A stretch of 64,000 nt of DNA from Oceanobacillus timonensis (lineage in GTDB: Bacteria > Bacillota > Bacilli > Bacillales > Amphibacillaceae). The stretch's first letter is position 1, and every line of letters starts with the position of its first letter. Below the pieces are notes generated by a model, which was given only the letters and a program-made list of their open reading frames with translations, was not told the DNA's origin and made no database searches. The stretch is taken from NCBI RefSeq assembly GCF_900166635.1, contig NZ_LT800497.1, positions 2,714,344 to 2,778,343 on the forward strand. Reading direction: 5' to 3'. This document shows positions 46,609-49,507 of this stretch, piece by piece. The position numbers were made by a program, and so were the translations under genes.

Positions 46609-47325
46609 TTAACTTGACAAGTCAAATGATAAAAATGCAGGTAATTGCTGTTCATGTTTATCGAGCATAATTTGTTCCGGCTTAACGCCCTGCTCACGCA
46701 ACACTTCAATATTCTGTGTGAGGAATTCGTCACTACCAACAATATAGAAGAGTCCATTTTTGTCTGCGGCAAAATTTTTCACTTCTTCATAGTAGTCTTT
46801 ACGGTTATCAACAAACTGTGATGTGAACTTTTTATCAGGTGCAGATTCAAAAATAGGCGTAAATAAGAAATCTCTGGATGAATCAATGTTCAGTGAATGA
46901 ATCTGATTGACGTTATCAGTACGTTCCAAATACTCAAGCACAAGTGGTCTGAACGTTGCCAGGCCAACTCCCGAGGACAGCAGATACACATTTCTGTCTT
47001 CTCTTTTAAGCGGCACATTCGAATGTGTTTTAAATATAGCCACTTCATGACCGACTTCCATATTTCTTAAAATAGATTTAAATTCCGAGCACTGCTCTCT
47101 AATCCGGGTTGTGATACCGATTGAATTTTCATGCGGCAAAGTGGAAATGGACATATGCCGAATCAGACTGCGGTTTGGTTTATCTCCGGCATTGAAACCT
47201 TCAAATGCAAAGTGAGTATGGGCACCTTCTTCCCATGTGAAGCCTTCCGGACAGTCGAGCAAGTATGTTTTCACCTCAGGGGCTTCCTCAATAATCTTAT
47301 TTATTTTAGTCCAGTATATTTTCAT
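46609..47325 (-). CDS. Ferredoxin/flavodoxin reductase-like FAD oxidoreductase
   Basis: A 238-residue flavoprotein of the ferredoxin-NADP reductase superfamily. The FAD-binding half has R-H-M-S-I-S-T-L (about 55-62), a variant of R-x-Y-S, and G-I-T-T-R-I. The nucleotide-binding half has L-L-S-S-G-V-G-L-A-T-F-R-P-L and Y-I-V-G-S-D-E-F-L. No Fe-S or ferredoxin domain is attached. It may supply electrons to a ferredoxin, flavodoxin or heme/siderophore reductase, and the exact partner is unknown. AAGGAG precedes the ATG. No promoter is evident in the 100 bases before the IS110 element, whose insertion may have displaced it. Confidence 0.8.
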   Translation of the reverse strand: MKIYWTKINKIIEEAPEVKTYLLDCPEGFTWEEGAHTHFAFEGFNAGDKPNRSLIRHMSISTLPHENSIGITTRIREQCSEFKSILRNMEVGHEVAIFKTHSNVPLKREDRNVYLLSSGVGLATFRPLVLEYLERTDNVNQIHSLNIDSSRDFLFTPIFESAPDKKFTSQFVDNRKDYYEEVKNFAADKNGLFYIVGSDEFLTQNIEVLREQGVKPEQIMLDKHEQQLPAFLSFDLSS

Positions 47326-47428
47326 AATGCATTCTCCTTGTATATTATGTTTAAGCCTAATAATTAATAGATTTTAGGCATCACTTGTACCTTGAAAATT
47401 AAATAATAATAGTTAGTCATTTTATTTA
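47326..47428. other. Leader of the oxidoreductase gene, left flank of the IS
   Basis: An AT-rich stretch with the ribosome site of the oxidoreductase gene and a small inverted repeat GCCTAA...TTAGGC (47356-47379). No sigma-A promoter with good boxes is seen on the minus strand. Confidence 0.4.
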
Positions 47429-47527
47429 TTGTTGGAGGGCGCAGCTTCGTAATGAGCGTATGCTTGCCTTGGCAAGCATACCGCGAATTAGAAAGAAGCA
47501 AGCGACAGTGCGGTAGCCCTCAAACAA
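47429..47527 (+). ncRNA. IS110 left-end structured domain 1
   Basis: Three nested helices can be drawn. TTGTTGGAGGGC (47429-47440) pairs with GCCCTCAAACAA (47516-47527) with one mismatch. GCTTC (47444-47448) pairs with GAAGC (47495-47499). GTATGCTTGCC (47458-47468) pairs perfectly with GGCAAGCATAC (47471-47481). It may be part of the guide RNA or a DNA structure at the element end. Confidence 0.55.
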
Positions 47528-47532
47528 AAGTG

Positions 47533-47813
47533 TTTACGATGCTGAGCTGTCTTTGGGAAAATAGCCATAGGTAGCGTTCCTACCAAGGGATTGTTCCGAT
47601 TTCTCCTGTTGCCCCAAGCTAACACTTGGGTGTCTTCCAATTAGAGAGTGTTGCCCTGGCCCTGTGTTATAGACCTACACGTTGACTGTTTCCCGGTCAG
47701 TTAGCCCTCCCGCAAAGCAGAAGGAGGCTCATGCACTGCTGACTCCCGGTGTATTCCAATAGCTCGCAAGGCTGTCGTTCATAGGTTTCCCAGGGACATC
47801 TCAGCATCGTAGG
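47533..47813 (+). ncRNA. Candidate IS110 bridge RNA, structured domain 2
   Basis: About 280 bases upstream of the transposase are closed by a long helix: TTTACGATGCTGAG (47533-47546) pairs with CTCAGCATCGTAGG (47800-47813), 12 Watson-Crick plus two G-U pairs. A second helix follows inside, TGTCTTTGGGAAA (47548-47560) with TTTCCCAGGGACA (47786-47798), 13 pairs including two G-U. AGCC (47563) can meet GGCT (47770). IS110 elements of the IS110 group encode a bridge RNA in exactly this place, whose internal loops pair with target and donor DNA. The transposase ribosome site follows 20 bases later. Confidence 0.65.
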
Positions 47814-47848
47814 CGCTACATCATCATAAACCAAAGGAGGTGATTCCT

Positions 47849-49105
47849 ATGACTTCTCCCTTGTTCGTCGGAATTGACGTAAGCAGTAAGCATAACGTCG
47901 TCTGTTGCTTAACCCGGGACGAAGTGAAACGGCCTCTGAGCCGATTTACCATTACCAACAATCGTCCCGGCATTCAAGAATTGAAAGACCGTATTTCCAA
48001 ACTCGTCAAAAAACATGGGTTTGAACAGGTTTTATTCGGTCTGGAACACACCGGAAGCTATTCGACGCACACGGCTATCTATTTGCAGCAGCACCTGGAC
48101 TTTGGCGTATCAGATAAATTGGTTTACGCATTGAATCCTAGCCTTATCAAAGAATTCAAAAAAGCGAATTTTCTCGATGCTCCCAAAAACGACCGGGTGG
48201 ATGCCTGGTATATTGCCGCAAAACTTCGTGCAGGTAATTTACCGCATCCTTATACGTGGAGCGAGCCACAAATGGCTCTACAGCGACTGACACGTGCACG
48301 ATATCATTTGATGCAGGATTTAACACGGGAGAGCAACTTTCTCCTGACAAACCTGTATTTAAAGTTCAGCGACTATACCATCGCTGGACCGTTTAAACAA
48401 AACACGCTCGGCGTAACGTCCATGGCCGTCATGGAAGAGTTTACTTCCGTTGAAGAACTCGTTGATATCTCATTGGACGAGCTCATTACCTTTTTGGTGC
48501 ACCATGGAAAAAATCGATTCGATGATCCCGAAGCCGTTGCCCGTTCCTTAAAAAAGGCAGCACGGTCTTCTTATCGGCTATCTGACTCCATGGCAGATTC
48601 GGTCAACTTAGCGATGGCATCCAGTATCCGGGTTATTCGCGCTATTCAGCAGGAATTAAAGGTCTTGAAAAAAGCCATTATGGATCATTTAGAAACCATC
48701 CCACAAACGCTGGATACAGTCCCGGGAATTGGTCCGATTTTCGCTTCTGGTATCCTGGCCGAAGTAGACATTCATCAATTCCAAAAACAGCAGCAGCTGG
48801 CTAAATTCGGCGGAATTGCCTGGAACCAGTCGCAATCCGGTGATTTTACTGCCAATCGAACCCGGCTGATTCAATCGGGGAACCGCTATCTCAAGTACTA
48901 CCTCTTTGAGGCCGCAAACAGTGTTCGGGTGCATGACCCTGTTTTTGCCCAGTACTATGCGAAAAAGCGGGAAGAACCAAAAGAATTTGCCAACAAACGT
49001 GCCCTTGCGCTTACAGCTCGAAAACTTGTGCGGTTGATCTTTTATCTGCTGAAGAACAACCAAATTTATCATCCAGAAGGAGGGATGCCACAAAATCATA
49101 AATAG
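47849..49105 (+). CDS. IS110-family transposase (DEDD recombinase)
   Basis: The 418-residue protein has an N-terminal RuvC-like DEDD domain: G-I-D-V-S with Asp10, L-E-H-T-G-S-Y with Glu66, and K-N-D-R-V-D-A with Asp115 and Asp118. The C-terminal Transposase_20 domain has the helix-hairpin-helix V-P-G-I-G-P-I-F-A-S and G-I-A-W-N-Q-S-Q-S-G, whose Ser330 matches the catalytic serine. The ATG is chosen because AAAGGAGG lies eight bases before it. A GTG three codons upstream falls in the ribosome site. AAAGGAGGTGAT (47833-47844) is fully complementary to the 16S rRNA 3' end, an unusually strong signal for a transposase. Confidence 0.93.
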   Translation: MTSPLFVGIDVSSKHNVVCCLTRDEVKRPLSRFTITNNRPGIQELKDRISKLVKKHGFEQVLFGLEHTGSYSTHTAIYLQQHLDFGVSDKLVYALNPSLIKEFKKANFLDAPKNDRVDAWYIAAKLRAGNLPHPYTWSEPQMALQRLTRARYHLMQDLTRESNFLLTNLYLKFSDYTIAGPFKQNTLGVTSMAVMEEFTSVEELVDISLDELITFLVHHGKNRFDDPEAVARSLKKAARSSYRLSDSMADSVNLAMASSIRVIRAIQQELKVLKKAIMDHLETIPQTLDTVPGIGPIFASGILAEVDIHQFQKQQQLAKFGGIAWNQSQSGDFTANRTRLIQSGNRYLKYYLFEAANSVRVHDPVFAQYYAKKREEPKEFANKRALALTARKLVRLIFYLLKNNQIYHPEGGMPQNHK

Positions 49106-49291
49106 ATTTTTATCGCCCTTTTTCTTTCACCTATTAATTTGTTTATATGGTATAAAATGTAAACAAATTAGGGTGGGTTTAGTTTCCTATTGCCTTTTTT
49201 AGCTGTATTGGCACGAATGAAGTAGGTTTTTAAAAATCAGTGCTTGACATTATACCGCTGCTCTCATCCATTAATGTTTCTGCTATCATTC

Positions 49292-49415: not shown

Positions 49416-49492
49416 CTTGAAGCAGGAGGCTTACAAATGCTCTTCGCCGGGGCGAGTAAGCGCATTCCCCAGTCCCAGCCAATTACACTGCG
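49416..49492. repeat. Degenerate intergenic repeat, right copy
   Basis: It begins CTTGAAGCAGGAGGCTTACA and continues GGGGCGAGTAAGCGCATT. The first part matches 46351 onward and the second part matches GGGACGAGTAAGCGCAGT near 58667. It immediately precedes the recA terminator. Confidence 0.55.
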
Positions 49493-49507
49493 ATGAAACC
49501 ATATGTA

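Follow-up and report, generated by a model that had tools for sequence, protein, structure and literature searches.

In the 64,000-nucleotide stretch of Oceanobacillus timonensis DNA analysed here (the window), the 420 bases that precede an IS110 transposase gene raise the question of whether a non-coding leader can serve as the guide of a mobile element and, if so, what it guides the element to. A preliminary description had taken this leader to be a candidate bridge RNA. With a probability of about 0.93, positions 47532-47814 together with a variable 5′ extension do constitute the bridge (guide) RNA of an IS110-group element. The three contrary outcomes named in that description, i.e., helices without covariation, loops without complementarity to target or donor, and a guide RNA downstream of the transposase, were not found; the helices covary, the loops match and the RNA is upstream. 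Two features read from the sequence go beyond it: the helix that encloses the RNA domain departs from the IS621 RNA as published, and the left target guide (LTG) is complementary to a Shine-Dalgarno sequence.

The element (Table 1) is found in four copies in its own genome, identical over positions 47336-49265, and the flanks of the copies are not alike. A search of this genome with PF01548 returned exactly these four copies. The preliminary description had proposed that the ends be mapped from multiple insertions, and the four copies together with empty sites in congeners place them at 47339 and 49264. The element starts 90 nt to the left of 47429, where the leader span given there begins. 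Relatives were gathered by transposase alignment and genome searches: 3763 homologous proteins scored at E<=0.001 among 8000 scored, with the best 120 of these used and 20 aligned, and the best 80 of 228 places on genome contigs were kept. No relative was found in one scan of viral contigs.

For the empty sites, flanks of the window copy were joined at the core and compared with 28 genomes of the genus, including the window's own. Some match to the joined flanks was present in 21 of the 28, and matches that span the junction occur in 19 congener genomes. Nine of these 19 junctions were aligned, and insertion is considered precise since all nine read CTCCT and lack the element, one being a base off in the alignment. 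The core is placed as in Table 1 because CT at these positions fits both ends as well as the empty sites; the 119 left and 120 right ends counted there were located by patterns that do not require CT. A first placement of the core at 47334-47335 was dropped, as some relatives have CC at that position. In the close clade CT is followed by TGTAT at the left end and in a clade of ∼45% identity by CGTAT, and the right end of relatives reads ...ACCNNNNNN followed by CT. By the copies, the empty sites and the end counts, insertion is scarless, with a core dinucleotide and no target-site duplication beyond it. A lone remnant of the right end, with 89% identity over ∼157 bp and a decayed terminus, is also found in the same genome (L005). 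The right flank at 49416-49498, equivalent to bases 390-472 of the joined-flank query, is found repeatedly in this genome and in those of congeners, and is apparently a dispersed short repeat.

The non-coding left end is long (47339-47848, 510 nt) and carries the guide RNA, and the right end is short (49106-49264, 159 nt), which is the layout of the IS110 group. Membership of the IS1111 group, with a long right end and a guide RNA downstream of the transposase, was considered and is ruled out by this short right end and by the conserved structured RNA upstream. The encoded protein has the domains of the IS110 family, a DEDD RuvC-like PF01548 and a Transposase_20 PF02371. Among proteins of solved structure, IS621 comes nearest in both sequence and fold, followed by ISCro4 (PDB 9t56); both are distant (phmmer E=2.3e-6 and E=8e-6, respectively). 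The AlphaFold model has a mean pLDDT of 57.5, with residues 282-418 below 50, and because of this weak second half only family-level claims on the fold are drawn.

Table 1. Coordinates of the features of the element and its surroundings, in positions of the window.
Feature	Position	Strand	Sequence or basis
Neighbour gene supplying the target Shine-Dalgarno sequence	46609..47325	-	start codon 11 nt from core
Left CT core	47337..47338	+	CT precedes [TC]GTAT in 113/119 left ends; empty-site junctions CTCCT
IS110-group element	47339..49264	+	1926 bp including one core; four identical copies and congener empty sites
-10 half of junction promoter	47341..47346	+	TATATT; sequence
5′ hairpin domain	47429..47528	+	fold; variable in relatives, not seen in some (e.g. 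L030)
P1, 5′ arm	47532..47560	+	27 pairs; 6 with compensatory change, 13 sequences
Target-binding stem-loop	47587..47655	+	consensus fold; closing stem 47587-47596 with 47646-47655
LTG	47598..47605	+	GATTTCTC, then core match CT 47606-47607
RTG	47639..47644	+	AATTAG, then core match AG 47645-47646
Donor-binding multiloop and apical hairpin	47661..47785	+	closing stem 47661-47666 with 47780-47785; 4/6 closing pairs compensatory
LDG	47680..47685	+	CGTTGA against LD CGCTGC (-7 to -2); 4/6 identical, 5/6 with wobble
RDG	47767..47770	+	CAAG, complement of core plus RD, CTTG
P1, 3′ arm	47786..47814	+	pairs with 47532..47560; same basis as 5′ arm
IS110 transposase/recombinase	47849..49105	+	418 aa; PF01548 E=3.9e-23, PF02371 E=9e-20
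-35 half of junction promoter	49244..49249	+	TTGACA; 17 nt from TATATT over the RE-LE junction
Right CT core	49263..49264	+	CT in 115/120 right ends; L013, L014 depart from query straight after
Predicted recombination sequences of the window element			donor TACCGCTGCTCTTGTATATT; target TTCTCCT-C

The leader was said to lack a coding frame, and among open reading frames of at least 80 amino acids none lies in it; the transposase frame opens at 47840. The two pairs of complementary arms first pointed out, 47533-47546 with 47800-47813 and 47548-47560 with 47786-47798, are real and merge into a single interrupted helix of 27 pairs, termed P1. Its main part is an inverted repeat (47535-47560 with 47786-47811) of 26 nt, 88% complementary, with 225 nt between the arms. 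Such arms had been held to be hard to obtain by chance; the best ungapped stem within 47429-47848 scores 17, a score reached by 0 of 500 dinucleotide-preserving shuffles (maximum 14). The folding energy of the 420-nt strand is -158.9 kcal/mol (z = -4.87 against 100 shuffles). P1 surrounds both a target stem-loop and a donor multiloop and delimits a domain of 283 nt, close to the 280 bases estimated earlier and longer than the IS621 RNA, and the divergent architecture then suspected is borne out by this helix around both loops.

Copies of ∼85-100 bp of the 5′ hairpin domain (47430-47521), with 79-85% identity, are present in four other genomes of the family (L016, L017, L018 and L019), and no IS110 transposase match was found in the 1.8-3.1 kb that surround each. 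No Rfam family matches the leader at gathering scores; three weak matches in a permissive scan are all on the minus strand and were judged to be due to chance.

A test of the helices for covariation had also been proposed, and compensatory changes in P1 are found in three alignments of relatives. The close-clade alignment comprises 13 of 14 sequences (the window and 12 close relatives, with L013 omitted on account of a deletion). Its consensus has 69 pairs, 20 of which are changed on both sides, and 97.2% of cells are paired; the covariation score is 0.271, versus 0.144 in shuffled alignments and no more than 0.081 with slid partners. For the 45% clade, 25 sequences were picked by hand, one per kind, and divided into 15 of Bacilli type and 10 of Clostridia type (labels assigned here). 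A helix of 23 and 24 pairs, respectively, is found in the same place with a different sequence, and 5 and 9 of its pairs are compensatory. Taken by itself, P1 exceeds both shuffles and slides in covariation score in the alignments of 13, 15 and 10 sequences. Of five measures, two are weak for the 15 sequences: the number of pairs changed on both sides is matched by 20 of 500 shuffles and that of further pair types by 452 of 500. The closing stem of the target loop hardly varies and carries no compensatory change; because of this near invariance it has no covariation support of its own.

The guides in the target loop (LTG and RTG) were read by the rule given for IS621 in the consulted sections of PMC11208160. 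Pairs of guides and insertion sites were extracted by script from parsable relatives (116 entries), each element type being weighted once. The guide counts omit 17 RNA hits without a parsable LTG, the misparsed locus L050, repeats of the same target, and entries with a left flank shorter than 8 nt (guide test) or 20 nt (start-codon test); L191 and the second copy in L194 share one left flank, which is counted twice. For the left target (LT; 45 element types, 110 sites), the mean number of matching bases out of 8 is 5.44 with the element's own LTG and 4.37 (sd 0.13) after guides are swapped; for the right target (RT; 38 types, 99 sites), it is 3.31 of 6 with the own RTG and 1.97 (sd 0.15) after swapping. 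Because the LTG parser favours C/T-rich candidates, matches are inflated for own and for swapped guides. The own-guide score is reached in 0 of 20000 permutations for LT and in 0 of 20000 for RT, and the same is seen within each clade alone; these permutations take no account of phylogeny, a point partly answered by the within-genome and RT1 comparisons below. The strongest signal between guide and target lies at LT -5, -4, -2 and -1 and at RT +1 and +2, and a fainter one extends up to RT +4. Position -8 shows no covariation and -7 and -6 little, position -3 is hardly variable, and -1 rests mainly on the single locus L103. This locus has an atypical guide and a similarly atypical insertion site.

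In Paenibacillus sp. 2.1, ∼30 parsed copies of a 45%-identical relative (L063 to L106) carry two guide variants and represent a natural experiment on guide drift. The variants have A or C at LTG -4, and A is found at target -4 in 4/4 and 4/26 of their sites, respectively (p=0.0026). Without one ambiguous site, at which L065 and L101 have identical flanks and different guides, the contrast is 4/4 versus 3/25 (p=0.0015). In the window, the RTG calls for C at RT1, and C is present there in all four of the element's own insertions versus 2 of 31 other Shine-Dalgarno-positioned sites within the window (p=0.0003). The window LTG matches the left targets of the four own copies at 6, 7, 4 and 6 of 8 bases (4 at L003). 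A match at 6 or 7 of 8 bases is also found for 6 of the 31 other sites, and because these fit equally well the LTG alone does not single out the element's own sites. In four of five plasmid relatives the LTG matches at 7, 7, 5 and 7 of 8 bases; at the fifth, L210, the match is 1 of 8 in frame and fits only after a slip of one base.

These pairings bear on an alternative in which the Shine-Dalgarno motif is read by the protein alone and the leader is a structural or regulatory 5′ untranslated region without a guide role. The C/T-rich half of the target is common to the elements, so that part of the specificity is clade-wide, and the transposase start follows immediately after the leader. The bases of the loop nevertheless vary with those of the target, including the first two bases of the right target, the LTG base at -4 tracks its target within one genome, and the left donor guide changes in step with the end of its own element; such an explanation is considered very improbable.

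The donor guides (LDG and RDG) supply the last of these observations. The LDG matches its own left donor (LD) at 5.21 of 6 bases versus 3.91 (sd 0.23) with swapped guides, in 14 distinct pairs that include five entries from the plasmid set added by hand, and none of 20000 permutations reaches this. The two hexamers are identical in 6 of the 14 pairs (CATTAG, CATTGG, CGCAGG, CACAGG, CACATG and CGCTGG) and one or two bases apart in the remaining 8; in relatives the LDG hexamer thus changes along with the element's own right end. In the tabulated rows of the window's clade the LD is CGCTGC throughout and the LDG is CGCTGA or CGTTGA, with a constant mismatch at -2. The window LDG shares this mismatch, and position -1 appears to be skipped. 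Close relatives combine an RDG of CAAG with CTTG, and in the 45% clade CGAG goes with CTCG; this amounts to one difference between the two clades. The preliminary description had asked whether internal loops match the target and donor flanks; they match both, and the LTG, RTG and LDG vary along with the sites.

The tracking of both target and donor DNA by the loops is also not predicted by regulation alone. It was considered that the leader might mainly be an attenuator or an antisense-regulated control of transposase translation, with the guide role secondary. Small RNAs are reported to regulate the transposase of ISPpu9 (PMC8450116, available parts), and the leader RNA and the transposase mRNA could be a single transcript. 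The Shine-Dalgarno stretch of the transposase (47833-47843) lies, however, outside the folded domain, and a mainly regulatory leader is considered very improbable.

The complementarity of the LTG to the Shine-Dalgarno sequence has a direct consequence, namely that the elements land at ribosome-binding sites. Of the 108 insertions parsed, which come from Bacilli and Clostridia, 102 have a start codon at a distance of 10-13 nt from the core, and in 97 this distance is 11 or 12 nt. In control sets, any start codon occurs at 10-13 nt in 32 of 95 CTCCT-like sites of the window and in 933 of 5000 random positions. For ATG only, the counts are 85/108 insertions, 21/95 CTCCT-like window sites and 390/5000 random positions. 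When an open reading frame is also required (at least 50 codons, or 30 if it runs off the contig) and the distance range is wider, 86 of 106 sites qualify versus 107 of 277 CTCCT-like left-flank sites. Six sites lack a start codon within 10-13 nt: L033, L054, L102, L171, L173 and L187. Plasmids yielded 25 matching records; five relatives, with 38-44% identity, were examined, and four of the five have an annotated gene on the minus strand whose start is 11 or 12 nt away from the core. In the remaining one (L207) no annotated gene start is found beside the left end.

The elements point away from the left-hand gene, and on the strand of that neighbour the core AG is followed by GAG at 81 of 108 sites. 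In the close clade the junction after insertion mostly reads ...CA-AG-GAG.... Because AG-GAG is usually kept at the left junction, the ribosome-binding sequence survives while the native promoter is displaced. The neighbour gene in the window has no Pfam match at E<=0.001. Two genomes carry elements with different guides and near-identical flanks (GGGAATTCC.. at the left and AATAGCTTTGAT at the right; L030 and L195), which suggests separate insertions at the ribosome-binding site of one gene. Two further relatives (L033:1852-4344 and L041:1-2060) are inserted in CRISPR-like repeats, at the same repeat position, with sites reading GTTTCAGTCCC-CT-ATTTTTCGGGG... and TTTCAGTCCC-CT-ATTAAACGGG... 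and downstream repeats 72-75 nt apart; the call is based on the repeat-spacer pattern. At L033 all 6 RTG bases match the repeat, and the LTG fits it only with a slip.

An excess of Shine-Dalgarno sites might also reflect selection that removes insertions elsewhere, and not seeking by a guide. Insertion between a promoter and a start codon spares the coding sequence, and, as noted, the LTG fits several further Shine-Dalgarno sites of the window no worse than its own targets. On the other hand, the guides are themselves Shine-Dalgarno complements and fit their own sites better than swapped guides, and the start codons are concentrated at two distances, 11 and 12 nt, in 97 of 108 cases; selection as the source of the excess is thus regarded as unlikely. 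It is very likely that these elements form a widespread Shine-Dalgarno-targeting lineage, i.e., an IS110 lineage of Bacilli and Clostridia that has fixed an anti-Shine-Dalgarno bridge RNA, for which the ribosome-binding site of every gene is a potential landing pad that is rebuilt at the junction. The guides drift, and the two relatives in CRISPR-like repeats have targets that resemble this theme. Selection may have fixed this guide.

When the right end of the window element is joined to its left end, a putative promoter is created, TTGACA-17-TATATT. The pattern TTGAC[N]-17-TATNNT is found in 103 of 106 junctions, many of them copies of one element, and since the patterns used to find the ends contain TTGAC and GTAT this count is largely built in and mainly the spacing is informative. 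No convincing outward promoter was found in the left end. A leftward promoter there that might drive the neighbour gene was sought; one weak minus-strand match (47398-47371, 9/12) was seen, and none is claimed.

For transcription, binding of the RNA to the protein, strand exchange and the effect on the neighbour gene, we infer the following course. The element would excise as a circle, the junction of which would rebuild the promoter and allow transcription of the leader. The recombinase would bind the leader RNA; the donor loop (LDG, RDG) would then pair with the RE-core-LE junction of the circle itself, the target loop (LTG, RTG) with a chromosomal site, and strand exchange at the CT core would insert the element. 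Insertion would take place at a ribosome-binding site, usually 11-12 nt from the start codon, and would shift the gene's native promoter ∼1.9 kb away.

The findings suggest a universal translation signal as the target on which natural bridge RNAs have settled; such a target is portable, independent of the host and present near almost every gene. They provide a testable account in which insertions uncouple genes from their promoters yet leave the ribosome-binding site. Also useful for learning the rules of targeting is this large and distant recombinase family, whose RNA has a different architecture and which supplies natural guide-target pairs by the dozen. Prior notice of Shine-Dalgarno targeting by an IS110 element is possible; no report of it was found among the titles and abstracts returned by a search of mostly open-access literature. 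Such targeting is not reported in the parts examined of PMC11187229, PMC8024623, PMC3196728 and PMC9208149, and in the first of these the sole mention of a ribosome-binding site in the text at hand concerns part of a cargo construct.

Among known systems, ISPpu9 of Pseudomonas putida, which PMC11208160 names as an IS110-family element in the text available, resembles the window element in having small RNAs around its transposase (PMC8450116, available parts). It differs in being located in REP sequences and in that its RNAs are there described as regulators. The seekRNAs of IS1111 and IS110 elements (Siddiquee et al., 2024, PMC11187229, parts examined) are likewise RNAs of a non-coding region that pick the target, and those of the IS110 type are usually upstream, as here. 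In the IS1111 types they are usually downstream, with the order of the guides reversed. ISCro4 ranks second to IS621 among solved relatives, in sequence as well as in fold, and is distant in sequence; its target was not discussed in the literature searched.

The closest comparison is with IS621, known here from a text description (PMC11208160, consulted in part). Its RNA of ∼177 nt consists of a 5′ stem-loop followed by two stem-loops. Shared by the two systems are a guide RNA in the left non-coding end with the target loop ahead of the donor loop, a left guide of 8-9 nt, a short right guide and a CT core, a promoter rebuilt at the circle junction, and a recombinase with PF01548 and PF02371. 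A similar enclosing helix may be present among the six other bridge RNAs drawn in the same paper. Unlike IS621, the window element has a domain of 283 nt inside a 27-pair helix and a variable 5′ domain, its recombinase is larger (418 aa) and distant, and its targets are Shine-Dalgarno sequences.
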